From: Elusimicrobiota bacterium
Lineage (GTDB): Bacteria > Elusimicrobiota > Elusimicrobia > Elusimicrobiales > UBA9959
Direction: 5' to 3'
DNA: 42,418 nucleotides
Assembly (NCBI GenBank): GCA_016209085.1
Contig: JACQWV010000037.1
Location: forward strand, 1-42,418
A program made the position numbers and the translations under genes. Positions 4,624-37,555 of this stretch are shown in pieces. A model generated the notes under the pieces. It was not told the DNA's origin and made no database searches. It worked only from the letters and a program-made list of their open reading frames with translations. The number at the start of each line of letters is the position of its first letter. Position 1 is the first letter of the stretch.

Positions 4624-4732
4624 TTGCTGGCCACTGGTTACTGTTGTTTTGCAGTTGCTGTTAGCAGAGCAAGCTCTGCAGCTACAATTTTTCGCTGTTA
4701 CTGGCTACTGGTTACTTGGTTACTGGTTACTG
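4624..4732. repeat. Spacer filled with heptamer-type repeats and a small palindrome
   Basis: The 130-base gap between the receiver and HD-GYP genes consists mostly of degenerate copies of a TGGTTAC-type heptamer (4624-4646 and 4693-4732). Between them is a perfect hairpin GCAGAGC-AA-GCTCTGC at 4664-4679. I see no clear promoter. A short hairpin without a T-run could act as a weak terminator or processing site. Confidence 0.75.
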
Positions 4733-7109: not shown

Positions 7110-7144
7110 GTTACTGGTTACTGCTTACTGATTACTGGTTACTG
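7110..7144. repeat. Array of five 7-base repeats (NTTACTG)
   Basis: Exactly 35 bases made of five heptamers, of which three are GTTACTG and two differ only in the first base. It overlaps the 3' end of the SPT-like gene: that gene's last six codons and its stop at 7125 are read from the array. It fills the gap to the acyltransferase gene. Confidence 0.9.
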
Positions 7145-8309
7145 TCTTATGCCTGGCCAGCGCTCTTTTCTTTATGACTTTTTTCGCGCAATCTTCAAAT
7201 ATGCTGAGCGCCTTGTCAAGCTGCTCCCTGGTATGCGTGGCCATTACGGCTATTCTTATAAGAGCCCTGTTGGGAGGGACGGCAGGGTTCCACAAAGTGA
7301 AGGTTTTGATGTTGTCGCCTATTATAATCGGTATTATCGGAGTCTGGGTAAGTCCGGTATTGAACCCCATTGCATGGAATTTTTCCTTGAGATAATTTGA
7401 ATTGTCCCAGAGCTTCTTTATCCTTTCAGGCTCGGCCTGGATGATGTCAATTGCCTTTGAAATCGTGGCGACCGAGGAAGGGGGGAGAGCGGCGGAGAAA
7501 ATCATTGACCGGGAGGTATGCTGTATGTAATGAATTACGTCTTTGTCTCCGGCGACGAAACCTCCCACCGAGGCAAAGCATTTTGAACAGGTGCCGACTA
7601 TGACGTCAACGTCTTTCGGCCCCAGACCGAAATATTCGCAGGTGCCCCTTCCGGTTTTCCCCAGTATTCCCGTAGCGTGGGCGTCGTCAACCATTACCCT
7701 CGCTCCGTATTTTTTGGCAACCTTTGCTATTTCAGGAAGATTGATAATGTCTCCCTCCATGCTGAACACCCCGTCCACTATCACAAGTTTGCCGCGTTTT
7801 GGCCCGATAAGTTTTAAAATCCTTTCAAAGTCCTGAATGTCGTTGTGCTTGAAACGCTTTATTTCCGCTCCTGCAAGCTTGCAGCCGTCAAATATGCTTG
7901 CGTGGTCCAGTTTGTCCACAACGGCCACGTCTCCCTTGCCGACAAGCGAAGATACCACCCCGAGATTCATCTGATAGCCAGTGGCGTATATCAGGGCTGC
8001 CTCCCTTTTTTTAAACGCAGCCAGCTTCTTTTCCAGTGTAGAGTGAAGGACGGTATTCCCGTTTAAAAATCTTGAGCCCGCGCAGCCTGTCCCGAATCTT
8101 TCCACCGCTTCTATGGCGGTTTTTTTCATCCTCGGGTCGTTTGCAAGACCCAGATAGTTGTTTGACCCCATCATTAAAAACTTTCTGCCGTTTATGTAAA
8201 CTTCAGGCGCCTGCTCGGATTCTATTTCCTTGAAATAAGGATATATTCCCGCTTCAATCAGTTGTTTGGCCGTAACAAAATCCCTGCATTTGTCAAATAG
8301 GTCAATCAT
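7125..8309 (-). CDS. Serine-palmitoyltransferase-like alpha-oxoamine synthase
   Basis: A 394-residue PLP enzyme of the alpha-oxoamine synthase group, which condenses an amino acid with an acyl-CoA. I chose the ATG at 8309 because GAGG lies five bases upstream and family members begin MxDLFDKC. Visible features are GSNNYLGL, GTGCAGSRFLNG, the PLP-contacting VDDAHATG and the Schiff-base lysine Lys243 in GTCSKCFASVGGF. The stretches YPYFKEIES, KHND, VDGVFSMEGD and the ending VMATHTREQLD agree better with bacterial SPT than with BioF or 2-amino-3-ketobutyrate ligase, though these remain alternatives. Between Trp340 and NPAVPP about ten residues common in the family (a helix ending GVFV) are missing. 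The last residues TVTSNQ come from a repeat array. It sits between rfaE2 and the GNAT acyltransferase gene. Confidence 0.82.
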   Translation of the reverse strand: MIDLFDKCRDFVTAKQLIEAGIYPYFKEIESEQAPEVYINGRKFLMMGSNNYLGLANDPRMKKTAIEAVERFGTGCAGSRFLNGNTVLHSTLEKKLAAFKKREAALIYATGYQMNLGVVSSLVGKGDVAVVDKLDHASIFDGCKLAGAEIKRFKHNDIQDFERILKLIGPKRGKLVIVDGVFSMEGDIINLPEIAKVAKKYGARVMVDDAHATGILGKTGRGTCEYFGLGPKDVDVIVGTCSKCFASVGGFVAGDKDVIHYIQHTSRSMIFSAALPPSSVATISKAIDIIQAEPERIKKLWDNSNYLKEKFHAMGFNTGLTQTPIIPIIIGDNIKTFTLWNPAVPPNRALIRIAVMATHTREQLDKALSIFEDCAKKVIKKRALARHKTVTSNQ

Positions 8310-8313
8310 AGTG

Positions 8314-8318
8314 TCCTC
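8314..8318 (-). promoter_or_regulatory. Ribosome binding site deciding the SPT-like start
   Basis: GAGGA on the minus strand, four bases before the ATG at 8309. The upstream in-frame ATG at 8327 has only a poorly spaced AGAG, so the shorter start is preferred. Confidence 0.6.
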
Positions 8319-8331
8319 AGTAAACATCTCT

Positions 8332-10316: not shown

Positions 10317-13300
10317 TCATCTTATCACTGCAAACTTTCCTTTGGTTTTTAATTTTTGGTCTGATTTTTCCGTTTCTATTAAATAATAGTAAACCCCGCT
10401 CGGGATATTCTCAGTCCAAGTGTATTCATAAGCGTAGCTTAAGCCGTTGCCGTCGTCTATTGCCTGCGGCATTCCTGTTATTGTATATTCATGGGCCAAT
10501 CTGCCTGAAACAGTATAAACTATTATTTTCACCCTGTCAGCAATTCCTGTTTCTATGTGGAATGTTGGTTTTTCAAGGTCTTTGGCCGGGTTCGGGAATA
10601 CATACACCTCGCCCATCTGGAATTCTTCCCCTGGCATATCAAGCACCATTACAGTATAAATTGAAAAATGGTTTGTCCATGCTTTTGCAAGTTTCAGAAT
10701 TTTGTCAACGGTGGTTTGCATTTCTTCCCATTGGTTTGTTGTCTGGTTATACCAGCAGATTCTTATTTCATTCTCATCTGCTCCGTCTAATTTTGCAGGG
10801 TTATAAGGCAGGGCTATTTGTACAGGCAGGCTGAATACGGTTCCTTCAGGTCCGAATTCCACGGGTTCTGCTATGATTTTTAATTCTCTCTGGTTTAAGG
10901 AAGACGTAGAGAGACGTTTTACTCCGCTTGTTTTTGGAATTGGTCTGTTTGACGTTACGGTTATTTCTGTGTCTGCAGCCAGAGAATCTTGAGGTATGTC
11001 AGCTTTTATGCCTTTTGCATGATGAATAGCTCCGCCTTCGGATTTTTTTACCAGTTTCGTAACTTTTTCGCCTTCTTGCTTTTCGCCCTGTGATGCTATC
11101 ACAATCAGTTCACCGTCTGCCGCGTATTTTTTTACTTTTGAATTGTTTGAATCTACTACAAATAGATTTCCTTCAGCATCTATTGTAACGCCAGCAGGGT
11201 GATTGAGCGTTTCAGTTTCATTTGTTCCTTTGTCAAATACAAGAATAGCGTTTCCATAAGGGTCAAATTTCTGGATTCTGGAATTGTTGCTATCCGTTAC
11301 ATAAACATAAGCCAAAGCATTCGTGAATATCCCGTCTGGTTTGTTAAATTGATTTGAATCGCCGAGCTGTCTTATGAAATTTCCTGATGAATCATAAATT
11401 AATACTCTGTCATTGTTTCGGTCTGTTATGTAAACTTGGTTTAATTCATCTACGGCTATTGCTCCATGGGGTTTGTTAAAATCTAAATCTATTCCTGTGT
11501 TTATTGTAAGCAGCAAATTCCCTTCAGGACTAAATTTTTTGACTTCATCATTGTTCCTGTCAGCTACCCAGAGATTGTTGCCGCTGTCAATGGCTAATCC
11601 ATGCGGCTTGTTGAATTGCGCATTAAGGCTGGTTATGTAAGCGCCTGTTGAACTAAATTTTATTACCCTGTCATTATTTCTGTCAGCAACCCAGAGATTT
11701 TCTTGATCGTCAACTGCCACACCTGTCGGTTTATTGAATTTTTTTGTTTTCTTTCCTTTGCCTTCACCTTCTTCTGTTTCCCACGCGCTGATTTCTGTTA
11801 TGTAGGTTCCGCTGGAATCAAATTTTTGTATTCTGTCGTTGTTCGTGTCTGAAACCCAAAATCCCCCTGTTTCCCCCTTTCCTAAAGGGGGATTTGAGGG
11901 GGATTTTTCTATTGCTATATATGATGGATTGTTGAATTCGCCAGGACCGTTTCCTTTCTGTCCCAGGCTTAATATTAATTTCGGCCCGGATATTATGGCT
12001 TGTATGCTTGTTATGCTTTCATTTCCAGCGCAGTCTTTTGCTCTTAGTCTTAAAGTATAAACACCCTCTGAAAGTCCTGTCATGTTCCATATTCCTAAAA
12101 CCTGTTCTGTAAGACTTTGCTCAGGGCTGGATGTTGTTATCACCTGATATGCCGAAGGCTCTGCGCCCCAGCCGTATTCAAGCGTGTATTGTGAAAAATG
12201 ATCAAATTCCACACGCTCTCCTCTCGCCTCTATCCTCTCGCCTCTATCCGTTACTGTTCCGATTATTTTTATGTTTGGCCCGTAAATCAGTTTGCATAGC
12301 CCGGCATTATTTATTGAGGTTGAAGGGCTTATTATGAATGCGTCAGGGGCCGTGTTATCAAGGACAACAGGTTTTATGAATGGGGTTTCATTGTTTCCCA
12401 CATTGTCTATGCTATAGCCTTTTATCTCTATATAGCCGTCTGGGATTGTCGCAGAAAGATAATAAGGCAGGGTGTTGGGGACAGGGTATTGGGTGTAGGT
12501 AAGAATTTTTGTGTTGTTTTCAAGAAAATAACTTGCGCCAACACCTGAAGCAACGCCTTTGATAATCGGGTCTTCAGAAGATATTGTCATTGGCAAATTG
12601 GAACTTAGGACAAGTCCATCTAAATGAAACGCAGGCGTGCTTAAAAAAACAATCTGGCTTACAGGCGGTGTTGCGTCCACCCAGATTGTGGTTGTTTTTG
12701 TAAGTTCTAAATTTAACATATTGTCCCTGCTTCTGTAATCCACGCGTTGGATTCCTTCTGTCAGGAAGAATGAGCTGTTTGAATTTTCATAATTGAAAGG
12801 CAGGAATTGCTTTCTTAAGTCCTGTGGGCTTGGCTCCAAAGGCTTTGTGCCGAAATAATTTAATTCTATTGTCCTGTATTCTGAAAAGAACATGCCTGAG
12901 GATACTTCTTTGACCACGGGGTCATAAGCTGATAATTTATAGCTGAACCACAATGGAGCGTAAAAATCGCCTGCGTTGTCCCCTGTTTTGGGAATGTAGT
13001 ATTGCCGATCCGTTCCTACGGTTCCGCTCGGAATAAGTGAAGTTATTGGCGGGCTTGCGTCTACATGGATTTCTATTGTTTTTGGCTCTTGTTGATTTCC
13101 TAATTTGTCAATGCTGTAATAAATAATTGCGTGTTTTCCTTCTGTTAGCGTGATGCTTGAAACATATTCCGTGAAATTTCCTTGGTCAATTTTAAAAATT
13201 GTTGAAGATACTCCGACTGAAACACCGTTAATTACCGGGTCAGTCGCTGTCAGTGTTATTGAACTTCTTTCGCTTATGTAAATCATTTTTTCTGAAACCT

Positions 13301-16300
13301 GATACCTGTCACCTGTTACCTGCCATGTTGTGATAGGGGCTGTGTTGTCTAACGCTATTGTGCTCGTTTTTATCTGTTCAATGTTCCCTAAAATGTCTTC
13401 TGCATTGTAGTCTAAATAATAAATCCCATCCTCTATCCTCTCGCCTCCTGCCTCTATCCCCTGTAGTGTGAATGTTGTGACAAATATTTCTCCCTGCTTC
13501 GGCTCCACATTTTCAAAAATTATTTCCTTCTCTATTCCCTCGCCTCTGACCCCTATTCTCTGGTTTTTAACCCCCAAGCCAATTCCGTCCCCATGCTCCA
13601 GCAAGTCATCTACGCTTGTTAAAGTAAAGCTCGTGTTTGCCGTTATATAATCCGTTCCCTCTAACTCTACCTTTGCCTCTGCCTGCAGTTGACTTCTTGG
13701 CGCCATTGTGTCCCATATAACTTCAAATTTTGCAGTTTCCGAACTTGAATGTTGTTCAGCCCAATCTTGGGCTTCTACAAATAACGTATAAAAACCATAG
13801 TGAGGCAAATTAAGCGGCTCTATCAAATCACCATGCTTTACTATCACTTTTGCGCCGATTTTGGTTTTGTCAACGCATTCCACAAGCGTCAAATATCCCG
13901 TGGTATTAAACGGCCCTATATCGCTTACCGTGTAATCAATATTTATTTTGTCTTTGAAGGCAATAAACTTCTCGCCGCCTAATGGCGATTTGATGGTTAT
14001 TTCAGGCGGCATGTTGTCAAGAACGGTTGTTATGGATTTGACTGTTTCTTGATTGTCTATGTTGTCAGCGCTTCTGTATGAAATCGCATATGGACCTTGT
14101 TCCATGGTTTTTACGGCTTGTTCATAAATTTGTTTTATTTCAACTTCAGTTAAAGGTCTGCTGTAAATTTTGACTTCGTCAATTATGCCGTCTAAATAAT
14201 AAGGCTGGTCAACCTGGGTTCTTGCGCCTATTAAAAGATTATATTGGGGTATTGTGCCGCCGGTTATGCTGATGCTGTTTTCCGCAGCCGGCGCTCCGTC
14301 AATGAATATTCTGGCTTTCGCGGTTCCCGGGTCATAAACAGCTGCGATATGGTAATATCTATTAATATCCAGCAATAGGGGCTGGGCTGTTGCTCCTTGT
14401 TCGGTATGTCCTGATGAGCCGCCGAGCATGAAAAATATTTGTTCGTGGCCGGCAGCCGCAGGAAGCCACCAAATATAATAACCCGGCACATTGTAAGCGC
14501 CGCCGGATACAAAGAAAGGATATGACCCTGCCCAGCCGAATATGTCTTTTTTACGGTTTATTGAAAACCAGAATTCTATGCTTGCGCCGTTTTTAACGTC
14601 AAATTCAGGATTGCCGGCTGAACCGGCTACAAGGACGTAATCGTCTATTCCGTCAAAGCTCAAAGCGCCGCGGATTTTCCCGTCAACCCATGTTGCGCCA
14701 TAGACAGCGCCGTGGTTCTCGTTGCCGCTTGCGTCATGCGCCGTATTCCCGGCTCCCTCGTCAAACGTCCAACTGCTGATTATTCCTGGAAAAACAACAG
14801 TAGCCGTGCTCGCAGGCGTTAAGTTAAAGGGTTGATCGTATTCTGTCCATTCCCGGTCGTTTATTTTCCACTCTATGTTTTTAACGCCGCTTAGATTGTC
14901 AGAGGCGGTTAATTCAAAGCTTGATTCATGGGTGATATAGGTATTCCCTGCTGTTTCAAGTTTTGGGGCTGTGATTTGAATCTGCGTTGTGGGCGGGGTG
15001 TTGTCAACCGCAAGGCCGCTTGTTTTTGTCTGTTCCGTGTTGCCTGCTTTGTCTTTGCTGTAATATGAAAGCATATGAAAACCTTCTTCTGAAATGGCGA
15101 ATGAATCCGCATAAACCTGCCATTGTCTTTGGTCTATCTGGTATTTTGTTTCTGATATGCCGAAACCTTTTGCATCCCCTATTTCAAGAAGGTCGTCTTC
15201 GGCGCTCAGGCTGATTAAACTGTTTTTGCCGATAAACGTGGATATTTCCGTTATGTATTTCGGCTCGCTGAGAGCAAGAAGCGTTCTTGGGGGCTTTATG
15301 TCATGCAGGACTTCAAAAGTTCCGCTTTCTGTTAATGCGGAATTGTCAGCGAAATCCGTGGCGCTTACCATTAATTTCCATTTTCCGTCATCTATATCCA
15401 GTGCTTCTATTATCTGTCCGCTTGAAACCAATATTTTATAAGGCCTTTGTCCCCTTGGACTGCCTATGTCTTCAATCTGCGTTAAAAATGCCTCAGTTGC
15501 CGGCAAGGGGTCAAAATTGTCTGTTACTTCAAAAAATATGCTTATCTTGTCTTTTGTCGCTACAAAAATGCTCCCCGCAAGAGCCGATGAAATGATTATT
15601 TGCGGGGAAGTCTTGTCTATGTTTATCCCGCTTACAAAAATATCTTTGAAATTATCAGCATAATCTTCAGCTCTTGCAGAAGTTGAAATATTTATCCCTT
15701 CCTCTGCGAGAATAATATCCGCAGGGCAGATTTTTACGCCGGAAAGATTATCCGAGCATTCAAATTTCAGGATTACATCTGTATTGTTCCAGCCTGCTGA
15801 ATTCGACTCAGGATTCTGCGCGTAAAAAATGTTCGGGCTTGTTGTGTCTATGTTCAACATAAGAGCGGCAGTTGAGGAAAGCCCTGCGTAATCCGCACAC
15901 CAGCCGGATACGGTTTGGCTTGTCCCCTCTACTGAAATTGTTTTTTCAGATGTGCAGTATTGAATGCCGGAAACAGTATCCGTTCCAATAAAGGTAACTG
16001 TTACCTTTGTATTGTTCCAGCCAAATTGATTTGCTGTTGGACTTGAAACAACAGCCACAACCGGGCTTGTCAAATCAATTTTAAATGAAACTGATTTTTC
16101 TGTTTCAATATTTTTTACATTGTCAACTGAATAATAATAAATTGTGTATATTCCCTCGCTGCTTATTACAATCGGCTCCGTGTAGTTTCTGATTTCTGAT
16201 TTCTGACCTCTGACTTCTAATAAATAATATGTGCTTGCTATGCCTGATAAACTATCCGTTGAAATTAGAGTCACGCTCACGGGGGAAGTATACCATTGAC

Positions 16301-19300
16301 TGGTTACTGGCAACTGGTTACCGGTTACTGTCGTTGCAGGCGCTGTTCCGTCAACATAAATTTCTGTTGATTTTGTAATTTCTAAATTCCCCGCATTGTC
16401 CTGGCTCCTGTATTCTATTGTGCGTTGTCCTTCTAAAATGCTAAATAGTTCTGTATAAAACATAAAATCTGTTGTTGTGTCAGGGTCTATCCTAAATTCA
16501 GTAAACGCAACTCCGCTTGCCGTCCCCAGCACTACCGGGTCATACGCAGTTAAACTTATTGAACTTTGTGTGTTTGTATAGATTTTTCCGCTGACCTCTA
16601 TCCGTTCGCCTCTAATCTCTAAACTCGTTTCTGACGGCGTTCTATCTTTAATTTTCCAGAATATCCCGAATAGCGAGGCTACTTGCGTTATCCGCGCAGT
16701 TATTCTTTTATTCTCCGTGTCCAGCGCCTGATTTGGAATTTTTACCCAGCCGATTTGTGTTGAATATTCATAAACAAAGATTTCATTTTCAGGAATTCCA
16801 AGATTCGCAAGCGTCGTCGTTGAATAATAAAAATTCAATTCTGCCGGAGGTTCATAACTTCCTTCAGGCCCTATGTCATAAAGATTGCTGACCAGCAAAA
16901 GACCTTGAGCAGATGCTGTTCCTAAAGAAATAATTCCTGTGCTTGATGTCGTACTGACAAGTGTTACATCTATCTGCTGATACGCTGAAAACAAAATTTC
17001 AGGATTTCCGTCTATTGTAACTGTGCTTTTTGCAACAAATTTTAGAAATACACCAGGACTGTTTGACAGACCTGAAACATTTCCGGCTTCATCAACAGTT
17101 TTTAATGCAAAATAATAACTCGCTCCGCCAACAAGGCCTGTTACCGTGAAAGTTTCTGTTGAACCAGCCACTTTCGGCGCAGGAATGTTGGGAATATTTA
17201 TGGCTGTCACAAATGTGTTTTCATTTGTTATCGAAACATTTGCCATTCTTAAATCATAACTTGCGGCTTTTCCAATATTCCCGTCATCCCCCGGCGCTGC
17301 CCAGGACAAAACCGAGCCGTCTTCCAAAATATTCGTTATTGTCAAAGTGGAAATTGCAGGAACAATGGTATCCGGAACAGGTGTTTGATTGAAAAATAAA
17401 ATAAATGTCTGAAGGTAAGTGCCGTCAAATTTTGTGGCAAGCGAAGGCGCCAGAATAGTATCGGGCAGATTATCATTATTAACATCCGCCGTGTCTATGG
17501 TTCCTATCGGCGTAACTGACCATACGCTTTGTTTAATGCCTGTCGCAAAAACAGAAGGTCCTGAAAATGTCCCATCCCCCTTGCCGAGAAAAATATTCAT
17601 GTTCTCTATATAAACAGGTGAGACAGCAAAATCTAAAATTCCATCTTTATTAAAATCACCCGAAACAGCGCTGTTCGGCGCTCCGCCGCAGCAAGGATAA
17701 TCAGCGCCTGTTTTTCTGAATTGGCGGTTTCTTAAATTTAAATAAACAACTAATCCCTGCTGGGCTGCAAAAATCGCTATATCCTGATAACCGTCTTGTT
17801 GTAAATCAACGGATTCTGCTTCAAAAACATGTCCTGTTATCCCGCCTAAAATTGTTGTTGTGGAAATACTTTCCTGCCCGTCGCCCCAAAATATTACATT
17901 CTGCGCAATTATATCAAGATTTCCGTCTTTGTCTAAATCAACTGATTTTATGCCGTTTGCCCAGCCGCCTGGATTTACAGCGCCGGCTGGAAAAGAAAAA
18001 GTCCTGCCTGAAGAAAAATTCCCGTTTCCATCCCCCAAAAAAATGATGATGTTATTTCCATAAGTGGAAACAATATCAATCCTGTTGTCATTATTAAAAT
18101 CTAAACTCGCAATCTCGCCATATCTGGCTATAAAGCCTGCATTTTTTCCTAAACCGAATGTCCCATCCCCGTTGCCGGGAAAAACAAGCGCTGCATTGGC
18201 TGTATACAGCATAAGATTTGATACCGATGCGGTAATATCAAGATTGCCGTCATTATTAAAATCTGAAATAAAAGCATCGTCAACAGGCCCAAATCCAGGA
18301 ATCGGCGCGCTTGATACATATGCGAAACTGCCGTCCCCGTTGCCTTTGCATAAAAAATATCTTCCTCCGTAATAACCGTCTCCATTAAAGCCAATAATAT
18401 CAACATTTCCGTCTTTATTAAAATCACCTGAAACAGTAACACTCGTATCGGCAACGCTCCACGGCACTGCCGGCCCATAGTTCGGCGCGCTGAAAACTGC
18501 CTGCATAAGATTTTTAGCGGTTATATTGAGGAAAACTCCTTCGGATTTGTTTCCGGCCGCATTCAGGGATTTTATCTCAAGCACATGCCTGCCATATCCT
18601 GACAGAGGAACTGTCGCATTAAAATAACCTTTATCATCGCAGATTGTCTCAGCTGTAAGCAAAGAACCATCAATAACTTGTATTTTGGTTTTCGCCTGGG
18701 CCTTTCCGCTTATTAAAGGCGAAAGACTGTAAACTGTTGTATTGTTTATTGGCGCATGTATATCAGGTTTTAGCGGCGGAGTAAAATCTAAACCGTAAAT
18801 TTTGACCATGTTGGCATCGCCAATATATATTTGTCCGGTCTTGGGGTGTACTGCCAAGGTCGTGGGATGATCAAGATAAGCATAGTCATTTTCCATGGGA
18901 AGATCCCCAAATGAGGCAATCATGACTTGTGTGCTTGAATACATATCAATCGTTCCGCTTGAATAATTTGCGATGTAAATGTTGTCGTAAATATCAAAAA
19001 CCAGCTGACGCCCCCCATGTGAAACAGGCCATTTTGACAATAAGTTCCCCTGCGCCGAGAATTTGTATATTTTATTTTCACTGTAATTGATGGCGCTTAG
19101 ATTCCCCATGCTGTCAATCGCAAACCCCTGCGCATTGCCATATTGAATGTTGGTTGGAAAGCCTGAAATAAAATTACCGGAAGAATCTAATTTAAAAATA
19201 TAATAACGATTCAGTGTGTATACATCGTTATTTCTGTCGCACACCACATCTATCGGTATGGTTCCGTAAAACTCAGGTTGTGCGGAACAATCCACCTTTT

Positions 19301-21575
19301 TTAAAAAAACCCCATCCATAGAATATTTCTCAAAATTCCACCAGCCTGTGCAGATCCAAAAATTCCCATCAGGACAAACTGCCATTTGACGCGGGGCATC
19401 TAATTGACCTCCGGGCCATGTTTTAACAAACTGTCCGTCAGATGTAAATTCCTGAACCCTTGAATTCACCGCGTCAAGCACAAATACCCTGTTTTCTTTG
19501 TCAATTTCTATGTCAGAAATGTCTTTGAATTCTCCCGGGTTAGCGCCGTATGCGCCAAAACTTTTTACAAACTCATAATACGGATGTTCAACAGGATTTT
19601 GATATTTAATAGGCCGGACTTCCACATTCACGCTCTTTATCCCTTCTTCATTCCCGACATTGTCAATGCTTGTGTAATAAACCGTATGCATGCCAACTGG
19701 AAGCGTAAACGGCGCGGTATATGCTGTAGCAGTCATGGTGGAAAACGCCGCATCAATGGTGTAATATATTCCTTTAACACCCGATCCTTCATCTACGGCA
19801 GTAAGCGTGACCGTGTCTGTAGAGGTTATGTTTACTGTCGCTCCGTCCGCTATCGGTTTCCCGTGTATTATGGCGTTTGTTATTGGCGGACCAACATCTA
19901 CAAAAACAAGTGTTGCAGCGCTTTCCGTGGCGATATATTTATCATCGCCGTTAAACTTTGCTTTAAGTTGATAAGTAGTAGTCAATGGCTGGGGCAATGC
20001 AAATTGAAAAACCGCTGTGCCGCTTGAAAGCGTCGCTGGGCCCAGCAGTTTCCATATTTCGTTGTCTTTGTATTCAAGATATATTGTTTTGGGCTCCGTA
20101 TCCTGATGTAATATTTGAACCCCTTTATTATTCGTCATGGGTACAGATATTACAGGCATGGTAGAATATGCGACGGTTGAAAAATCGGATATATAGGTTT
20201 CTGATTTTACTACTTGAATTGTGACAGTCTGCGTGGAAGAAGTGTAATAGTAACCGTCGCCGGGAAAAGCGGCAGTGAGTTGATAATCTCCCGGAGGGGC
20301 ATCCACCTGCGGATAAACCGACGCTTCGCCGGTTCCGCCAGTCAAGGCGGCAAATGTGGAGCTGCCTATATAAAAATTAACCGTTTTTCCGAGCAAAGTC
20401 TGGCCGGAACTGGTAACTGTGGCCGCAATCATTGCGTAAGAAGAATAAACCGTGACAGTTGAACCGGTATATGCCACTGCTGCCGGCTGCGGCACTGCTG
20501 AGATAATAGAATTTGTAGCCGTTTCTTCAAGCACAGTGGGGAAATATACGGTGGCGAAGTTCTTTATCACTGTGCCTTGCGGAACATCGGGTTTAAGCCG
20601 GAGCTCCACAGTAAATTTCCCGCCTTTTCGGGAATCAAATGTGCCCGCGAATACCGTCAGTTTACGGGAATTACGGTCATAATTATAAGGCAAGGTTGCG
20701 GGCGTTTCAGTGTTCGTGGCCCAGTCAACAAGATAAAAATCTTTTACGATAAGTTCGGAATCGTCAAGGTTAGTATCAAATATATCCGTAATGTAAACAT
20801 CAAAAGCTGTGCCGGTGCCTTCGTTCTCAAACATGATGGTATAGGTCATCAGCTGTCCGGGTGTTACATACCCTTCCGGGCCAAGCATTGCGTTGGGGTC
20901 GTGAGGGAACCATGCCCTTACCACAACTTCATTCGGCGGCAGCGGCGGCGTTTCAGGCGTGGGTGGAGGTTTACGCCCGCCACATAACGGATTTATGGGG
21001 CGGCCAGATCCGGACGAGGGGGTAGGAGTAGATAAAAACACACCTTGCTTGTCTGGTTCTTTTTTATATAATTCTGAATCCCTATTTTTGAGCCGAATTA
21101 ATTTTTGAGGATATTCATTCCAAAGTTCCATATGTAAATGAGGCCCTGTTCCTAATCCGGAACTGCCAGAGCCTGCAATAACAGTATGGTCCATAGATTG
21201 ATTAATTGAAACTCTAATATCATCACAATTCAAATGGCCGTAAATTGTGTATGCGGTTTCTGAATGTTTAATCGCCACCCAACAACCAAGTTGAGTATCT
21301 GGATTCCTCCCAAATCCTACTACAATTCCTGCTCCAGCTGAGCGAACAGGAGTGTTATTCGGCACAGCATAGTCTTGACCTCCATGGATCCAAGTCCTTC
21401 CGCTTATTGTTCTGGTAGAACCAAAATAATCACGGAGATCAACATCTACAGGCGGCTGATAATCAGGAATTAGCGGGGCCGTCTCGCATCTGGCCTCGTT
21501 AAGCGGCACCCACTTAGCCAAAGCGGGGTTGGGGAGGCTACATAAAACAAGACAGATAAATATTAATCGCGGCAT
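10317..21575 (-). CDS. Giant secreted multidomain protein: M23 peptidase, Ig-like, NHL and VCBS propellers, LamG, C-terminal sorting-type domain
   Basis: A 3752-residue protein from the ATG at 21575; a TTG four codons earlier overlaps the previous stop and is an alternative. Order by approximate residue: signal peptide 1-20 ending ALA; M23/LytM peptidase with His64, Asp68, His114 and His146-x-His148 all present; a DUF11-like domain 215-345; Ig-like domains 355-650; NHL propeller 660-930; FG-GAP/VCBS repeats with DFNKDG motifs 1025-1390; fibronectin III 1405-1510; many Ig-like ‘YYSxDNxGNxE’ repeats 1650-2240 and 2490-3190; LamG 2260-2485; a second NHL propeller 3205-3490 with repeated FNKP and DRNND; a ZU5-like segment; and a FlgD/Por-type domain (FPNPAKD, then PSGVYYYLIE) at the end. 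It is probably a cell-surface or exported protein. The peptidoglycan-cleaving role is inferred from the intact M23 ligands. Seven repeat arrays and one hairpin element lie in frame. Confidence 0.88.
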   Translation of the reverse strand: MPRLIFICLVLCSLPNPALAKWVPLNEARCETAPLIPDYQPPVDVDLRDYFGSTRTISGRTWIHGGQDYAVPNNTPVRSAGAGIVVGFGRNPDTQLGCWVAIKHSETAYTIYGHLNCDDIRVSINQSMDHTVIAGSGSSGLGTGPHLHMELWNEYPQKLIRLKNRDSELYKKEPDKQGVFLSTPTPSSGSGRPINPLCGGRKPPPTPETPPLPPNEVVVRAWFPHDPNAMLGPEGYVTPGQLMTYTIMFENEGTGTAFDVYITDIFDTNLDDSELIVKDFYLVDWATNTETPATLPYNYDRNSRKLTVFAGTFDSRKGGKFTVELRLKPDVPQGTVIKNFATVYFPTVLEETATNSIISAVPQPAAVAYTGSTVTVYSSYAMIAATVTSSGQTLLGKTVNFYIGSSTFAALTGGTGEASVYPQVDAPPGDYQLTAAFPGDGYYYTSSTQTVTIQVVKSETYISDFSTVAYSTMPVISVPMTNNKGVQILHQDTEPKTIYLEYKDNEIWKLLGPATLSSGTAVFQFALPQPLTTTYQLKAKFNGDDKYIATESAATLVFVDVGPPITNAIIHGKPIADGATVNITSTDTVTLTAVDEGSGVKGIYYTIDAAFSTMTATAYTAPFTLPVGMHTVYYTSIDNVGNEEGIKSVNVEVRPIKYQNPVEHPYYEFVKSFGAYGANPGEFKDISDIEIDKENRVFVLDAVNSRVQEFTSDGQFVKTWPGGQLDAPRQMAVCPDGNFWICTGWWNFEKYSMDGVFLKKVDCSAQPEFYGTIPIDVVCDRNNDVYTLNRYYIFKLDSSGNFISGFPTNIQYGNAQGFAIDSMGNLSAINYSENKIYKFSAQGNLLSKWPVSHGGRQLVFDIYDNIYIANYSSGTIDMYSSTQVMIASFGDLPMENDYAYLDHPTTLAVHPKTGQIYIGDANMVKIYGLDFTPPLKPDIHAPINNTTVYSLSPLISGKAQAKTKIQVIDGSLLTAETICDDKGYFNATVPLSGYGRHVLEIKSLNAAGNKSEGVFLNITAKNLMQAVFSAPNYGPAVPWSVADTSVTVSGDFNKDGNVDIIGFNGDGYYGGRYFLCKGNGDGSFAYVSSAPIPGFGPVDDAFISDFNNDGNLDITASVSNLMLYTANAALVFPGNGDGTFGLGKNAGFIARYGEIASLDFNNDNRIDIVSTYGNNIIIFLGDGNGNFSSGRTFSFPAGAVNPGGWANGIKSVDLDKDGNLDIIAQNVIFWGDGQESISTTTILGGITGHVFEAESVDLQQDGYQDIAIFAAQQGLVVYLNLRNRQFRKTGADYPCCGGAPNSAVSGDFNKDGILDFAVSPVYIENMNIFLGKGDGTFSGPSVFATGIKQSVWSVTPIGTIDTADVNNDNLPDTILAPSLATKFDGTYLQTFILFFNQTPVPDTIVPAISTLTITNILEDGSVLSWAAPGDDGNIGKAASYDLRMANVSITNENTFVTAINIPNIPAPKVAGSTETFTVTGLVGGASYYFALKTVDEAGNVSGLSNSPGVFLKFVAKSTVTIDGNPEILFSAYQQIDVTLVSTTSSTGIISLGTASAQGLLLVSNLYDIGPEGSYEPPAELNFYYSTTTLANLGIPENEIFVYEYSTQIGWVKIPNQALDTENKRITARITQVASLFGIFWKIKDRTPSETSLEIRGERIEVSGKIYTNTQSSISLTAYDPVVLGTASGVAFTEFRIDPDTTTDFMFYTELFSILEGQRTIEYRSQDNAGNLEITKSTEIYVDGTAPATTVTGNQLPVTSQWYTSPVSVTLISTDSLSGIASTYYLLEVRGQKSEIRNYTEPIVISSEGIYTIYYYSVDNVKNIETEKSVSFKIDLTSPVVAVVSSPTANQFGWNNTKVTVTFIGTDTVSGIQYCTSEKTISVEGTSQTVSGWCADYAGLSSTAALMLNIDTTSPNIFYAQNPESNSAGWNNTDVILKFECSDNLSGVKICPADIILAEEGINISTSARAEDYADNFKDIFVSGINIDKTSPQIIISSALAGSIFVATKDKISIFFEVTDNFDPLPATEAFLTQIEDIGSPRGQRPYKILVSSGQIIEALDIDDGKWKLMVSATDFADNSALTESGTFEVLHDIKPPRTLLALSEPKYITEISTFIGKNSLISLSAEDDLLEIGDAKGFGISETKYQIDQRQWQVYADSFAISEEGFHMLSYYSKDKAGNTEQTKTSGLAVDNTPPTTQIQITAPKLETAGNTYITHESSFELTASDNLSGVKNIEWKINDREWTEYDQPFNLTPASTATVVFPGIISSWTFDEGAGNTAHDASGNENHGAVYGATWVDGKIRGALSFDGIDDYVLVAGSAGNPEFDVKNGASIEFWFSINRKKDIFGWAGSYPFFVSGGAYNVPGYYIWWLPAAAGHEQIFFMLGGSSGHTEQGATAQPLLLDINRYYHIAAVYDPGTAKARIFIDGAPAAENSISITGGTIPQYNLLIGARTQVDQPYYLDGIIDEVKIYSRPLTEVEIKQIYEQAVKTMEQGPYAISYRSADNIDNQETVKSITTVLDNMPPEITIKSPLGGEKFIAFKDKINIDYTVSDIGPFNTTGYLTLVECVDKTKIGAKVIVKHGDLIEPLNLPHYGFYTLFVEAQDWAEQHSSSETAKFEVIWDTMAPRSQLQAEAKVELEGTDYITANTSFTLTSVDDLLEHGDGIGLGVKNQRIGVRGEGIEKEIIFENVEPKQGEIFVTTFTLQGIEAGGERIEDGIYYLDYNAEDILGNIEQIKTSTIALDNTAPITTWQVTGDRYQVSEKMIYISERSSITLTATDPVINGVSVGVSSTIFKIDQGNFTEYVSSITLTEGKHAIIYYSIDKLGNQQEPKTIEIHVDASPPITSLIPSGTVGTDRQYYIPKTGDNAGDFYAPLWFSYKLSAYDPVVKEVSSGMFFSEYRTIELNYFGTKPLEPSPQDLRKQFLPFNYENSNSSFFLTEGIQRVDYRSRDNMLNLELTKTTTIWVDATPPVSQIVFLSTPAFHLDGLVLSSNLPMTISSEDPIIKGVASGVGASYFLENNTKILTYTQYPVPNTLPYYLSATIPDGYIEIKGYSIDNVGNNETPFIKPVVLDNTAPDAFIISPSTSINNAGLCKLIYGPNIKIIGTVTDRGERIEARGERVEFDHFSQYTLEYGWGAEPSAYQVITTSSPEQSLTEQVLGIWNMTGLSEGVYTLRLRAKDCAGNESITSIQAIISGPKLILSLGQKGNGPGEFNNPSYIAIEKSPSNPPLGKGETGGFWVSDTNNDRIQKFDSSGTYITEISAWETEEGEGKGKKTKKFNKPTGVAVDDQENLWVADRNNDRVIKFSSTGAYITSLNAQFNKPHGLAIDSGNNLWVADRNNDEVKKFSPEGNLLLTINTGIDLDFNKPHGAIAVDELNQVYITDRNNDRVLIYDSSGNFIRQLGDSNQFNKPDGIFTNALAYVYVTDSNNSRIQKFDPYGNAILVFDKGTNETETLNHPAGVTIDAEGNLFVVDSNNSKVKKYAADGELIVIASQGEKQEGEKVTKLVKKSEGGAIHHAKGIKADIPQDSLAADTEITVTSNRPIPKTSGVKRLSTSSLNQRELKIIAEPVEFGPEGTVFSLPVQIALPYNPAKLDGADENEIRICWYNQTTNQWEEMQTTVDKILKLAKAWTNHFSIYTVMVLDMPGEEFQMGEVYVFPNPAKDLEKPTFHIETGIADRVKIIVYTVSGRLAHEYTITGMPQAIDDGNGLSYAYEYTWTENIPSGVYYYLIETEKSDQKLKTKGKFAVIR
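11858..11907. repeat. Nested inverted repeat read in frame within the giant gene
   Basis: The outer arms AAAATCCCCCT (11858-11868) and its exact complement (11897-11907) enclose an inner perfect 9-bp stem, TCCCCCTTT/AAAGGGGGA, with a CCT loop (11872-11892). It interrupts the first blade of the second NHL propeller as the peptide NPPLGKGETGGF. A related inner hairpin with the same CCT loop occurs between genes at 33336-33356. Confidence 0.85.
12216..12250. repeat. In-frame array of five heptamers (CTCTCCT/CTCGCCT/CTATCCT)
   Basis: 35 bases, five 7-base units, alternating CTCGCCT and CTATCCN after the first. On the coding strand it is purine-rich and is read as DRGERIEARGERV in a loop between Ig-like domains of the giant protein. 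Confidence 0.9.
13297..13324. repeat. In-frame array of four heptamers (ACCTGNN)
   Basis: 28 bases, four units all beginning ACCTG. In the giant protein it gives WQVTGDRYQV just before an Ig-like domain strand (MIYISERS). Confidence 0.9.
13430..13463. repeat. In-frame heptamer array (CCTCTAT type)
   Basis: Four 7-base units beginning CCTC, followed by a partial fifth unit. Read as QGIEAGGERIEDG within an Ig-like repeat of the giant protein. Confidence 0.85.
13530..13563. repeat. In-frame heptamer array (CTCTATT type, degenerate)
   Basis: Four diverged 7-base pyrimidine-rich units plus a partial fifth, read as NQRIGVRGEGIEKE. It is more degenerate than the neighbouring arrays and only 66 bases from the previous one. 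Confidence 0.7.
16186..16220. repeat. In-frame array of five heptamers (TTTCTGA)
   Basis: 35 bases: three identical TTTCTGA units, then CCTCTGA and CTTCTAA. In the giant protein it is read as LEVRGQKSEIRN within an Ig-like repeat. Confidence 0.92.
16299..16333. repeat. In-frame array of five heptamers (ACTGGTT)
   Basis: 35 bases, five units of the ACTGGTT type. The same heptamer family appears between genes at 4693-4732 and 7110-7144. Read in frame as TVTGNQLPVTSQ. Confidence 0.92.
16595..16622. repeat. In-frame array of four heptamers (CCTCTAN)
   Basis: Four 7-base units, the second quite diverged. Read as LEIRGERIEVSG immediately before an Ig-like domain of the giant protein. Confidence 0.75.
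20553..20903. repeat. 351-bp segment nearly identical to 22858-23208
   Basis: Ungapped alignment (offset 2305 bases) with about ten mismatches by eye. It encodes the DUF11-like domain shared by the giant protein and the shorter M23 protein. The flanking M23 domains are much more diverged, so this block was copied or converted more recently. Confidence 0.9.
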
Positions 21576-21583
21576 TTTGAATC

Positions 21584-22822
21584 TCAAAAAGGTTTAAACA
21601 GTTTTATGCTTTTTTCATGGCCTATCAAAACATATTCCCCGTTTTCAGAAATTGAATACCTGAAATACTGTGGCCAGGCCACTTTAGCAGTTACTTTTAA
21701 TTCGCCGACCTTTTGACCGCTTATATCATAAAACAGCATGCCCTTTTCACGGCCCAACAAAAGATGTTTCCCATTTTTTGTTAAGTAAAATAATTTTTCT
21801 TGACTTGGAATATTATCAATATTATATTGATATGTCCAAGTAAGACTGCTATTTTTTATTTCGTAAACTGTTATGGTTTCTATACCTCTATCACCTCCTA
21901 ACGAGGCAACATGTGTATTAGATAGGGATACTTGGTTACTATAGCCTTTTATCCGCAAAAGTTCTTTCCGGGTGACTATATCGTGTACGTCACCACTGTA
22001 AATAACAAGAGTATTGTAAATTTCCCAAAATTGGCCTCGCAATTCTTCCCATACTATATGTCCATTTGCGCATTCAATAATCTTATTTTGTACAAACACA
22101 TATTTTCCATCTTCAGAAAAACCACGTGTTGTTCGAATATCACCATCCGCTTTGCCAGTAAATTTTACTTGGCCTTTCATATCTAAAAGATAATAAGTAA
22201 CGGATGGTGTGGTCACGTCCGGGTCACAATCCCCCTCGCCACAAATATAATAAGGAGAGAAAGGCGGCTTAATCAGAACATAACTATCGCCTCCTATGGC
22301 ATGCTCCCCCTTTCTGGAAGTCTGCCACAGTAATTTACCCTCGCTGTCAAAACATAATTTTTTATAAGGTTCATATCTTTCAAAATCTTCAAAACCCTCC
22401 AGATTTTCCCATGTATTCAATACCCCAAGATCGCAAACTATAAATTTGCCACTGCTGCTGAATTGGATATTCAACAAGGCAGTATCTGATTTGTCGGATT
22501 TGAATTCATATGTGCGTTTTGGCAGTTTCCCTTTGTAACGGTAATCCCAGAGTTTTTCCCCTTTCGTATTGTAAAGCGTTAAATATCCGGTTTCATCAGC
22601 TATGGCTATTTTTGTGCCGTCTTTGCTGATGGCTGAGGATGTAATGGGCTTGCTCAATTTCTTCTCCCAAAGGAGTTTCGGGAAAACGGCCGTTTCAGTA
22701 CTCGTGTTTATATCGGATTGAATTCGTGTCGCTGTGGAAATATCCACTTCGGGTTCATCCGCCGAGATGGCCCCGGCAAGGCCAAAAAATAAGATGAAAC
22801 TTATGCGCGTTATTTTAGCCAT
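21584..22822 (-). CDS. Exported WD40/PQQ-like beta-propeller protein (copy 2)
   Basis: A 412-residue protein from the ATG at 22822, directly after a strong AGGAGG; the TTG six codons upstream lies before that site and is rejected. There is a signal peptide of about 21 residues (FILFFGLAGAISA). The body repeats short blocks of the kind SSAISKDGTKIAIADETGYLTLYNTKGEKLW, typical of PQQ/WD40-like propellers that bind or display rather than catalyse. No catalytic residues are visible. Its N-terminal 100 residues are nearly identical to those of the gene at 23886-25106, and the rest is more diverged. It is followed, with near overlap, by the giant M23-containing protein, repeating the arrangement of the other pair. 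Its partner and function are unknown. Confidence 0.78.
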   Translation of the reverse strand: MAKITRISFILFFGLAGAISADEPEVDISTATRIQSDINTSTETAVFPKLLWEKKLSKPITSSAISKDGTKIAIADETGYLTLYNTKGEKLWDYRYKGKLPKRTYEFKSDKSDTALLNIQFSSSGKFIVCDLGVLNTWENLEGFEDFERYEPYKKLCFDSEGKLLWQTSRKGEHAIGGDSYVLIKPPFSPYYICGEGDCDPDVTTPSVTYYLLDMKGQVKFTGKADGDIRTTRGFSEDGKYVFVQNKIIECANGHIVWEELRGQFWEIYNTLVIYSGDVHDIVTRKELLRIKGYSNQVSLSNTHVASLGGDRGIETITVYEIKNSSLTWTYQYNIDNIPSQEKLFYLTKNGKHLLLGREKGMLFYDISGQKVGELKVTAKVAWPQYFRYSISENGEYVLIGHEKSIKLFKPF

Positions 22823-22825
22823 ATT

Positions 22826-22831
22826 CCTCCT
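22826..22831 (-). promoter_or_regulatory. Strong Shine-Dalgarno AGGAGG for the copy-2 propeller gene
   Basis: AGGAGG on the minus strand, three bases before the ATG at 22822. The spacing is short but the sequence is a perfect match, and the resulting N-terminus is a normal signal peptide. Confidence 0.6.
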
Positions 22832-22848
22832 AAAAAACAACTATCACC

Positions 22849-23886
22849 TTATACCAAGGCGAAGTTTTTTATCACTGTGCCTTGCGGAACATCGGGTTTA
22901 AGCCGGAGCTCCACAGTAAATTTCCCGCCCTTTCGGGAATCAAATGTGCCCGCGAATACCGTCAGTTTACGGGAATTACGGTCATAATTATAAGGCAAGG
23001 TTGCAGACGTTTCGGTGTTTGTGGCCCAGTCAACAAGATAAAAATCTTTTACGATAAGTTCGGAATCGTCAAGGTTAGTATCAAATATATCCGTAATGTA
23101 AACATCAAAAGCTGTGCCGGTGCCTTCGTTCTCAAACATGATGGTATAGGTCATCAACTGACCGGGCGTAACATACCCTTCCGGGCCAAGCATTGCGTTG
23201 GGGTCGTGCGGGGTCCAGGCTACCAGTGTATACTCACTCGGACCCAAAGGCGGCGGCGGTTTAGGTGGAGGATAATCAAACAAACATCTTAAGTCTTTGG
23301 GACGGCCGTTATAACCGTCAGGATGTGGAGGGCCAACCCAGTCTTTCCAGCACGTGGCTCCTAGTTTCGGAGGGCAGTTGTACCAAAACTCCACATGTAG
23401 ATGTGGCCTGACACGGGCATTATTGTAATAACCACTATGGTCAGATTCAGCCAGAATTGTGGTGCGGGTCACAATGTCGCCACTTTTTACATTAATTTTA
23501 TCACAATCCAAATGTCCATAAAACGTAAACACGTTTGCAGCATTCCTTATTGCGATCCAACACCCCAGCGTATAACTTTCGTCCACATCCCCACCGGCTT
23601 TGCCTACCAGAACCACGGTGCCATCTCCGATTGGGTAAACGGGGGTGTTGTCAGGTGATAGGAAATCCGTTCCGCCATGAGGATGGGGGCGGCCTTTTGT
23701 GCTTCCGAAATCTTCATTTATTTCATCGGACACGGGGTACCGATAGTAATCCGGCATTGGTGCATCTAAATTCTCACAGTCGGCTTCGCCAAATGGGATT
23801 TTTGGGCCCACATCGGCAAAAGCCGGTTGATAGAAAATTGCCAGAACGAATCCTGCCCTTAATATTTCCCTCATGATTTTAACCAT
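22849..23886 (-). CDS. Exported M23 (LytM) peptidase with DUF11-like domain, truncated relative to its giant paralogue
   Basis: A 345-residue protein whose ATG shares its A with the stop of the preceding gene (TGATG). It has a signal peptide (FVLAIFYQPAFA) and an M23 domain with the ligands in PHGGTDF, FYGHLDCD and RPHLHVEF, so it is predicted to cleave peptidoglycan cross-links or peptides in the envelope. From about residue 215 it has the DUF11-like domain that is almost identical to that of the giant protein. The sequence then stops at NFALV, exactly where the giant protein continues NFATVYFP, so it looks like the front end of a longer protein cut off by a rearrangement. The next gene begins within 30 bases. 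Confidence 0.82.
   Translation of the reverse strand: MVKIMREILRAGFVLAIFYQPAFADVGPKIPFGEADCENLDAPMPDYYRYPVSDEINEDFGSTKGRPHPHGGTDFLSPDNTPVYPIGDGTVVLVGKAGGDVDESYTLGCWIAIRNAANVFTFYGHLDCDKINVKSGDIVTRTTILAESDHSGYYNNARVRPHLHVEFWYNCPPKLGATCWKDWVGPPHPDGYNGRPKDLRCLFDYPPPKPPPPLGPSEYTLVAWTPHDPNAMLGPEGYVTPGQLMTYTIMFENEGTGTAFDVYITDIFDTNLDDSELIVKDFYLVDWATNTETSATLPYNYDRNSRKLTVFAGTFDSRKGGKFTVELRLKPDVPQGTVIKNFALV
22858..23208. repeat. 351-bp segment nearly identical to 20553-20903
   Basis: Second copy of the duplicated DUF11-like segment. Homology to the giant gene stops abruptly at its 3' end, nine bases before this gene's stop codon. Confidence 0.9.
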
Positions 23887-25106
23887 CAAAAGCTTTTATA
23901 TAGTCTTACCGCTCTATCATATCCGAACAAAACAAATTCTCCGTTTTCTGTGAGTGAATAGTAATCAAAGTTGCCATTAGGTTTGATTATTACAGGTAAT
24001 CGCCAAATTTCTCCCCCATGACTATTATACAGGATAAGACTTTTTACGCCACCCAGGAACAAACGCATGGAATCCTTTGTCAAGTAAAGCAATCTCTCAT
24101 CACCACCAGGAGTAGGTTCTGGGTAAGATTGGCGTCTCCAAACAAGTCGGCCTGTTTCAATTTCATGTACGGTCAAAAAGACTTTCCCCTGTTCCGATTG
24201 TATGCCTGCGATATGCTTGTTGGTTATGGAAAAGAAAGAAGTATTCCTAATATTTAAAAGTTTTGTCCTAGTCGTGAAATTATAAACCTCTCCGCCGCCC
24301 TTGTTAACCACAACAGCGTGATTTTTGTTAATGCCTTCGAAAAGACCACTTTTAATTTCCCATACACTACGGCCACTTTTACATTCAATGATTTTGTTGT
24401 CTAAAAAGAGATATCTCCCATCTTCCGAGAAGCCATAGCACCGTAAACTATCCCCGTTCGTCTTACCAGTAAACAATAGCTGTCCCCTAGTATCCAGCAG
24501 ATAATAATCGAGAGGATTTGTGTCGCTCTCATCGCCTGACCAAGATTGAATTAAAACATACTCGTCCCCCCCAATAAAATGACGTCCTTCCTTTAATGTT
24601 TGCCATAACAATTTACCATCCTTATCAAGGAATATTTTTATATATGGCTCATATTCCTCTGTTTTGCCAAACCCCCTAAAATCAGTCCATGTATTCAGAA
24701 CACGCAAATCAGCGATAATATACTTGCCACCACCACTGAATTTTACATCAAAAAAAATAGTATCAGATTTATCCGATTGAAATTCCAATGTGCGTTTCGG
24801 CAGCTCTCCGTAGTAGCGGTAGGCCCACAGTTTTTTGCCTTTCGTGTCGTAGAGCGTTAAATATCCGGTTTCGTCCGCTATGGCTATTTTTGTGCCGTCT
24901 TTGCTGATGGCTGAGGATGTAATAGGCTTGCTCAATTTCTTCTCCCAGAGAAGTTTCGGAAAAACAGCACTTTCCGTGCTTGCGCTTATATCACTGCCGG
25001 CAACCGGTGTCCCAGTGGAAGATGATAGGAGACCGTCGTCAGCCGCACATGGGTAAATAAAAGCTAAAACCAGAAGAAAATTAATAAATAGTTTTTTCTT
25101 TGTCAT
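23886..25106 (-). CDS. Exported WD40/PQQ-like beta-propeller protein (copy 1)
   Basis: A 406-residue protein with an AAGGA ribosome site six bases before the ATG. The signal peptide ends near CAADDG. It is a paralogue of the product of 21584-22822. The stretch from PKLLWEKKLSKPITSS to TGYLTLYDTKG is almost unchanged, while the middle blades differ clearly and the last blade (SLTENGEFVLFGYDRAVRLY) is again alike. It is probably a propeller that displays or binds ligands outside the cytoplasm; I see no catalytic motif. Its stop overlaps the start of the M23 gene by one base, so the two are translationally coupled, which suggests the propeller and the peptidase act as a pair. Confidence 0.78.
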   Translation of the reverse strand: MTKKKLFINFLLVLAFIYPCAADDGLLSSSTGTPVAGSDISASTESAVFPKLLWEKKLSKPITSSAISKDGTKIAIADETGYLTLYDTKGKKLWAYRYYGELPKRTLEFQSDKSDTIFFDVKFSGGGKYIIADLRVLNTWTDFRGFGKTEEYEPYIKIFLDKDGKLLWQTLKEGRHFIGGDEYVLIQSWSGDESDTNPLDYYLLDTRGQLLFTGKTNGDSLRCYGFSEDGRYLFLDNKIIECKSGRSVWEIKSGLFEGINKNHAVVVNKGGGEVYNFTTRTKLLNIRNTSFFSITNKHIAGIQSEQGKVFLTVHEIETGRLVWRRQSYPEPTPGGDERLLYLTKDSMRLFLGGVKSLILYNSHGGEIWRLPVIIKPNGNFDYYSLTENGEFVLFGYDRAVRLYKSF

Positions 25107-29534: not shown

Positions 29535-29566
29535 ACTCAGTAATCACTCAATCACTTAATCACTAT
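29535..29566. repeat. Array of four octamers (ATCACTNA type)
   Basis: Four 8-base units on one side of the palindromic centre TTGCGCAA (29528-29535). The other side (29507-29527) carries weaker inverse copies of the AAGT type. The stop of the biotinyl-like gene at 29577 follows directly. Confidence 0.75.
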
Positions 29567-31426: not shown

Positions 31427-31505
31427 AAGGTGATAAGATGATAAGTTGATACGGTGATAAGTAAGCTCAGTAACTTATAACCTTATCACCTTGTAACCTT
31501 ATAAC
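31427..31505. repeat. Inverted pair of octamer arrays between glyA and mtnP
   Basis: Left: four octamers of the AAGGTGAT type plus a weaker fifth (31427-31466). Right: four octamers CTTATAAC/CTTATCAC/CTTGTAAC (31474-31505). They are reverse complements of the same family. The stop codon of glyA is inside the right array. Confidence 0.9.
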
Positions 31506-33266: not shown

Positions 33267-33396
33267 CAGTGGTTAAGTAATTTAGTGATTAAGAGATTAA
33301 GTTCGTATTCCATTATTTTTTCAAATCCCTCTCAATCTCCCTTTCCTAAAGGGAGAAGTCATCCCTAATTACTCAATTACTTAATCACTTAATCTC
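33267..33396. repeat. Composite element: octamer array, nested hairpin, inverse octamer array
   Basis: Four octamers (33267-33298, e.g. AAGTAATT, TAGTGATT), then a core with the perfect hairpin TCTCCCTTT-CCT-AAAGGGAGA (33336-33356), then four inverse octamers (33365-33396, e.g. TCAATTAC, TTAATCAC). The core is a relative of the element inside the giant gene at 11858-11907. It fills most of the 147-base gap between the Sua5 and phosphatase genes. Confidence 0.88.
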
Positions 33397-33404
33397 TATT
33401 TACG

Positions 33405-37487: not shown

Positions 37488-37555
37488 AGTGATTAGTGAA
37501 TAGTGAAGAGTGGATAGTTAACGACAAACCACTGACCACTCGCCACTAACCACTA
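37488..37555. repeat. Inverted pair of heptamer arrays between the ZIP and rel genes
   Basis: Five AGTGNNN-type units (37488-37522), a 5-base centre, then four inverse units (ACCACTN type, 37528-37555). It nearly fills the 79-base gap between the ZIP stop and the rel start. The same heptamer family (AGTGGTT) recurs at 29979-30049. Confidence 0.9.

Follow-up and report, generated by a model that had tools for sequence, protein, structure and literature searches.

Heptamer direct repeats of the unit TAACTGA have been described for Beggiatoaceae and for some Cyanobacteria and Bacteroidetes, in which one exact unit prevails, related heptamers are seldom repeated, and nearly all repeats are direct and mostly located just upstream of start codons (MacGregor 2015, PMC4679880). 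As cited there, most repeat-rich prokaryotic genomes have more repeats of heptanucleotide units than of any other class, and a DNA polymerase interaction favouring slippage was proposed for these repeats (Mrazek 2007). The repeats of archaeal Borgs evolve fast and are found between genes as well as in open reading frames (ORFs), often of extracellular proteins; they are perfect, and their unit lengths in ORFs are all divisible by three (Schoelmerich 2023, PMC9879509). Rickettsia palindromic elements (RPEs), as summarised in PMC10969869 (Ogata 2000, 2002), are inserted sequences of about 150 bp that belong to families and encode a conserved peptide. Repeat units indivisible by three are usually expected to stay out of genes. 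Here we describe degenerate arrays of 7- and 8-nucleotide (nt) units in a 42,418-nt stretch of an Elusimicrobiota genome (GenBank assembly GCA_016209085.1, contig JACQWV010000037.1; "the window" in the following), seven of which were originally predicted within the gene of a giant exported protein (ORF 10317-21587, reverse strand). With a probability of about 0.55, we attribute the arrays to repeated rewriting and tandem expansion of local sequence, with reading frame, stop codons and hydropathy as filters, mostly as overprinting and with some copying between loci. In the literature collection that was searched, no description of such arrays in Elusimicrobia was found.

Arrays in the giant surface protein

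The window corresponds to contig C123 of a genome with 2.35 Mb in 140 contigs and 98% completeness (G000; other G numbers denote genomes of relatives, L numbers sampled stretches), of which stretches totalling approximately 0.72 Mb (about 30%) were sampled; all sequences are those of metagenome-assembled genomes (MAGs). A first scan of genome contigs with the giant protein yielded no relatives, and a scan with GlyA then gave the phylum, the closest named relatives of GlyA being Elusimicrobia MAGs with 79, 77 and 74% identity.

The giant ORF comprises 3756 amino acids when read from a TTG start (the gene caller placed the start at 21509) and contains an M23 peptidase domain, immunoglobulin (Ig)-like domains, FG-GAP and NHL repeats as well as weak matches to C-terminal sorting domains. 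Five period-7 runs were observed in the gene (lag-7 identity, score at least 9) versus 0.08 expected from 300 codon shuffles, and the periods 5, 6, 8, 9, 10 and 11 gave zero to one run each. Five AG dinucleotides at 7-nt spacing occur at four places (16188, 13531, 13291 and 12215), with an expectation of 0.00.

All array sites of the ORF are in frame and stop-free, and five of the seven are convincing by themselves. These are, on the reverse strand, 12216-12249 with the 14-nt double unit GATAGAGGCGAGAG (peptide TDRGERIEARGER), 13292-13325 (site 13297) with AGGTNNC-type units (WQVTGDRYQVSE), 13428-13460 (site 13430) with AGAGGNN-type units (GIEAGGERIED), 16186-16218 with AGAAATC/AGAGGTC units (LLEVRGQKSEIRN), and about 16291-16330 (site 16299) with AGTAACC units (TVTGNQLPVTSQ). 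The array at 13530-13562 (reverse strand, QRIGVRGEGIEKE) is backed by its AG lattice and by homologues. The degenerate one at 16595-16625 (reverse strand, LEIRGERIEVS) is weak alone, with a lag-7 match of 0.57, while its homologue in G004 is a clear array (0.71). A possible eighth array of opposite (CT) sense and period 14 lies at 12468-12493 (reverse strand, TQYPVPNTL) and is also present in a paralogue. Lengths of often exactly 35 or 28 bases, as first claimed, did not hold, the detected spans being about 26 to 34 nt, with 13428-13454 as the confirmed part of site 13430. Site 16299 does belong, as proposed, to one ACTGGTT family with the intergenic ACTGGTT/AGTAACC array at 4697-4732 and the AGTAACC array at 7110-7144 (reverse strand), the latter extending over the 3' end of gene 7125-8327 (C-terminus TVTSNQ). 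The third unit of the 16299 array is the variant AGTTGCC, where a regular AGTAACC would give an in-frame TAA. The placement just before or within Ig-like repeats does not apply to 12216, which follows the last recognised Ig-like repeat and precedes the NHL region.

According to the original prediction, small repeats may be invading protein loops here, with peptides that do not resemble the neighbouring domain sequence. The paralogue of the giant protein, located on contig C42 and 78% identical in nucleotides where the two align, has an array at 13530 and a degenerate period-7 pattern at 13297, none at 12216 or 13430, and arrays of its own at places that are array-free in the window protein. 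At 12216, the window protein is 12 nt longer than the paralogue, G008 and G019, all three lacking an array there; at 13430, where the paralogue and orthologues likewise lack the array, it is longer by 12 nt than the paralogue and by 21 nt, i.e. three heptamers, than G019, G008, G002 and G003. The remaining five sites have the same or nearly the same length in homologues: at 16186, 16299 and 16595, the alignment to at least several of them is gapless, and 13297 is one residue longer than most. At 13530, the paralogue and the array-rich G013, G008, G019 and G002 carry arrays of other unit types, and the array-poor G030, G003, G026, G036 and G031 have ordinary codons, mostly of similar length, and no array. 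Judged from these alignments, net gains in the giant protein are seen only at 12216 and 13430. The original observation holds for the most part; the term invasion, taken literally, is right for two of seven sites and doubtful for the others. Plain insertion at all seven was dropped, given the little or no length change at five of them. Nor are the peptides generally foreign to the domain. VTGDRYQ at 13297 fits the family pattern V-x-G-x-x-Y (VIGDRYQ in G004, VSGDQYK in G013), and QRIGVRGEG at 13530 is found again in G013; at 13297 and 16595, homologues roughly keep the peptide with unrelated codons, which is what the original prediction had named as evidence against itself.

Models of two domains (mean predicted local distance difference test score, pLDDT, of 91 and 84) carry moderate weight, since they were built from small alignments of internal repeats. 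They place 13430 and part of 16299 in lower-confidence loops; 16186 spans a strand end plus a turn, and 13530 forms a beta-hairpin and not a free loop (mean pLDDT 84). When one Ig-like domain was used in a fold search, the matches were only weak (best E 3e-3) and of the beta-sandwich or fibronectin type. Between the giant proteins of G013 and G002, one array (concatenated positions 72463 and 75576) does not differ over a length of about 50 nt, with flanks of 73-77% identity, which suggests exchange, possibly gene conversion, or constraint; a similar array occurs elsewhere in the same protein.

Arrays across the genome and among relatives

In 0.63 Mb of G000, 67 period-7 and 32 period-8 arrays were detected (score at least 13), compared with none in Markov-simulated sequence; other periods were near zero, except multiples such as 14, 16 and 21. 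An invariant AG/CT column is present in 69 of 111 arrays (score at least 12), exceeding every other dinucleotide, and the mean fraction of units with this column is 0.80-0.93 over eight genomes. The AG lattice is common in certain genera of the family and phylum and lacking in others. Common unit types are AGTGGTT (15 arrays), AGTAACC (14), AGTGAAT (13) and AGTCACA (11), in addition to octamers, and the units differ within most arrays. Multi-unit strings of at least 24 nt are common to 18 pairs of different loci, versus a mean of 9.0 and a maximum of 16 in 20 shuffles. Neighbouring arrays of opposite type form intergenic inverted pairs of fixed polarity, 5'-(AG...)n-tip-(...CT)n-3': over eight genomes, AG precedes CT in 48 of 51 cases and CT precedes AG in three (binomial p 2e-11), and many of the pairs fold as hairpins.

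Arrays are about 20 times rarer in genes (1.13 per kb in non-coding DNA, 0.054 in coding sequence, 0.021 in gene interiors), and those in genes follow a strand rule. At N-termini, 11 of 13 arrays have CT sense, and the products are the hydrophobic cores of signal peptides, for example LLLVTGYWLLVT and LYWLLATGYWLLP; in gene interiors and at C-termini, 16 of 17 have AG sense, and their peptides, among them KSQVASL, RGERIE and RGQRSEV, are mostly hydrophilic (Fisher p=1.5e-5). With home-made gene calls and signal-peptide rule and a crude predictor of exported proteins, 11 of 161 such proteins (approximately 7%) have an array in the leader segment. CT-sense heptamer or octamer arrays form the cores of signal peptides or lipoprotein leaders at L084:2981-3015, L080:10578-10611, L087:5763-5805, L043:8436-8479, L073:5365-5411, L079:223-249 and L046:9002-9035. 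A small exported-looking protein (L074:12887-13729) consists largely of RGERIEN-like 7-residue repeats resembling expanded heptamer arrays.

Selection for frame and against stops, which the original prediction named beside compensation, is visible in the use of stop triplets. On the sense strand, a stop triplet occurs in 7 of 25 non-terminal coding arrays (18 are without). Of the 81 arrays outside coding sequence, 74 contain one on the AG strand and 64 on the CT strand. Arrays at gene 3' ends contain one in four of five cases.

Arrays of the same kind occupy loops, linkers and tails of other proteins, as expected from the prediction, and gains are seen among relatives. A PurC loop bears arrays in G000, G013, G002 and G025, the array of G010 at this place being degenerate. 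The stretch has 48 codons in G000, G013 and G002, 41 in G010, G064 and G072, and 83 in G025, the differences being 7 codons (21 nt) and, for G025 versus G010, 42 codons (126 nt). The NadC loop of about 5-6 residues in most relatives is 8 residues longer in G000 (three octamers; 24 nt by alignment count), and heptamer arrays occur there in G004 (approximately 30 residues) and in G023, where the contig end cuts the array. The linker of the IspD-IspF fusion (L085:15623-15711) is an AAGTCTC array encoding a KSQVSSL heptad repeat, possibly a coiled coil, and is about 24 residues longer in G000, most relatives having a linker shorter by some 22-25 residues. In TsaD, a 57-nt array corresponds to a net gain of only 9-12 nt versus most relatives. 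In G019 (L253), about 36 codons of another, non-heptamer kind are inserted in the TsaD loop, which indicates that this loop accepts several kinds of added sequence.

Turnover is also seen between sister species. G010 and G025, with flanks mostly 80-90% identical, often both have a hairpin array at a given intergenic place, with unit types that differ between the two, and the tip of several is close to AAGGAATTCCTT; some places are clean empty sites in one of the two, and the arrays at 18120 in G025 and 14870 in G010 have short empty counterparts. G013 and G002 show the same turnover, and in one signal-peptide stretch the arrays differ at a length of 45 nt in both. An intergenic insertion of approximately 155 bp in G013 with TCAG at both edges (position 35686 of the concatenated loci) is missing from G002; it contains an inverted array pair between CCGAAAATT...AATTTTCGG palindromes.

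The window contains further arrays outside the giant gene. An inverted octamer-array pair (AAGGTGAT ... CTTATAAC) at 31427-31508 forms a hairpin whose right arm enters the 3' end of glyA, an inverted heptamer-array pair with AGTGNNT ... CCACT units lies at 37488-37555, and intergenic octamer arrays are found at 33367-33397 (AATTACTC) and 29542-29564 (AATCACTC). Beside the arrays, an rsmI-like methyltransferase gene (ORF 33988-34845) has a perfect in-frame tandem duplication of 69 bp (23 residues) at 34157-34294. Neighbouring M23-type genes have nearly identical stretches at 20577-20987 and 22882-23292 and, together with two further similar genes at 21584-22840 and 23886-25106, point to a recent local duplication.

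Origin of the arrays

The seven arrays of the giant protein may represent the coding fraction of a genome-wide population of 7- and 8-nt arrays in the AG register (CT on the other strand), which would repeatedly arise, lengthen and switch unit type at sequence-tolerant places. In genes, we infer mainly local tandem copying from AG-containing seeds, which slippage or a misalignment-type process would expand and rewrite; arrays would to some extent also be copied between loci, and selection would act as the filter. Only in-frame, stop-avoiding arrays with fitting hydropathy would last, in CT sense as signal-peptide cores and in AG sense mostly as hydrophilic loops, linkers and tails. Most sites of the giant protein would have been overprinted at no or almost no net length change, and two loops would have grown. 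Local tandem copying fits both the rewriting without length change and the differences in unit multiples, three-unit multiples being seen in PurC (21 and 126 nt), at 13430 (21 nt) and in NadC (24 nt). Copying between loci fits the excess of common multi-unit strings, which is modest.

Several observations weigh against this reading. The gains at 12216 (+12 nt), in TsaD (+9 to +12) and in IspD-IspF (about +72) are not multiples of 21 nt. Plain slippage predicts neither the restricted common unit vocabulary nor the fixed AG-before-CT order of the inverted pairs (48 of 51, p=2e-11); this order is the strongest hint of something more specific than slippage. At least one intergenic array lies within a clean insertion, namely that of about 155 bp bordered by short TCAG repeats. 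As most comparisons of coding sites span genus distance, the order of events at these sites is a reconstruction.

Clean empty sites in sister species, among them the short counterparts of the G025 and G010 arrays, the TCAG-edged insertion, common unit strings at distant loci and the large net gains in NadC and IspD-IspF would all be expected if copies of a small mobile palindromic repeat entered loops and were later trimmed to frame, in the manner of RPEs and in the sense of the invasion first proposed. However, net length is unchanged or almost so at five of the seven sites in the giant protein, only single arms were seen as coding arrays, and different unit types occupy one protein place across genera. 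A RAYT/Y1 transposase (Y1_Tnp) as the mobiliser was rejected, because these genes also occur in array-poor genomes and most of their loci have no array within 1.2 kb. We regard mobile insertion as unlikely to account for the arrays. The nearly equal length of homologues and the fit of the peptides at 13297, 13530 and 16595 to the domain pattern would also agree with normal Ig-like parts, in which the heptamer pattern merely reflects codon choice or old repeats. This is very improbable given that codon shuffles of the giant gene almost never yield such runs, that array-poor genomes are without arrays at these places, and that the same unit types fill the intergenic DNA of this genome.

The polarity, the restricted vocabulary and a period fixed at 7 or 8 direct attention to a putative enzyme that adds AG-type units at DNA 3' ends at breaks. 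Joining of two such ends would give the fixed 5'-(AG)n-tip-(CT)n-3' order, and one end a single coding array. Profile searches of the 98%-complete genome found neither a reverse transcriptase (RVT_1, PF00078), which was likewise not found in several other array-rich genomes, nor Ku (PF02735); neither family tracks the array-rich genomes, no candidate enzyme was identified, and we consider terminal addition decidedly improbable. The broader proposal is that AG-register heptamers and octamers are produced at DNA ends or hairpins by a dedicated Elusimicrobiota activity, which in this way would continually alter intergenic hairpins, signal peptides and surface-protein loops. It is rather improbable as well; if true, it would constitute a built-in diversifier of non-triplet unit length. 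Recurrent local rewriting under selection stays the reading that we prefer.

Comparison with described repeat systems

The phenomenon extends well past the seven arrays first noted: heptamer and octamer arrays occur here and there in the phylum and contribute to signal peptides, linkers and loops. A 7-nt unit is read in each of the three frames in turn, so that the encoded peptide has a period of seven residues and a short array can serve as a ready source of peptide sequence, as exemplified by the giant surface proteins with their several arrays and by the KSQVSSL heptad repeat of the IspD-IspF linker. As the distribution in the phylum is patchy and sister species differ in state, one can test directly how new coding sequence originates from repeats.

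Systems based on repetitive extragenic palindromes (REP) and RAYT differ from the arrays, as most RAYT loci are not flanked by arrays and RAYT presence does not track them, and a telomerase- or retroelement-type system would imply a reverse transcriptase in array-rich genomes, which the profile search did not reveal in G000 or in several others. The long simple sequence repeats of Mrazek (2007) likewise have heptanucleotide units; in the form in which they are cited in PMC4679880, AG register, polarity, strand rule and use in loops or signal peptides are not described. With RPEs, in so far as summarised in PMC10969869, the arrays have in common that small palindrome-related repeats are tolerated in frame in unrelated genes. 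Instead of in-frame palindromic insertions with conserved sequence and encoded peptide, however, the coding arrays consist of one arm each, approximately 25-90 nt long, encode diverse peptides and often bring no net gain. Borg repeats are similar in being fast-evolving tandem repeats that lie in intergenic DNA and in ORFs, often of extracellular proteins, but are perfect and of triplet unit length in ORFs, whereas the units described here are degenerate, 7 or 8 nt long and part of a bacterial genome. The TAACTGA repeats (PMC4679880), which read AGTTATC in the AG register, are alike in their 7-nt tandem units, mainly intergenic location and patchy distribution, and we count their coding cases, mainly near protein ends, as a further likeness. 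In contrast to the single exact heptamer of that system, the arrays described here have many degenerate unit types, include octamers, form inverted pairs whose polarity is fixed, and also lie within signal peptides and internal loops.

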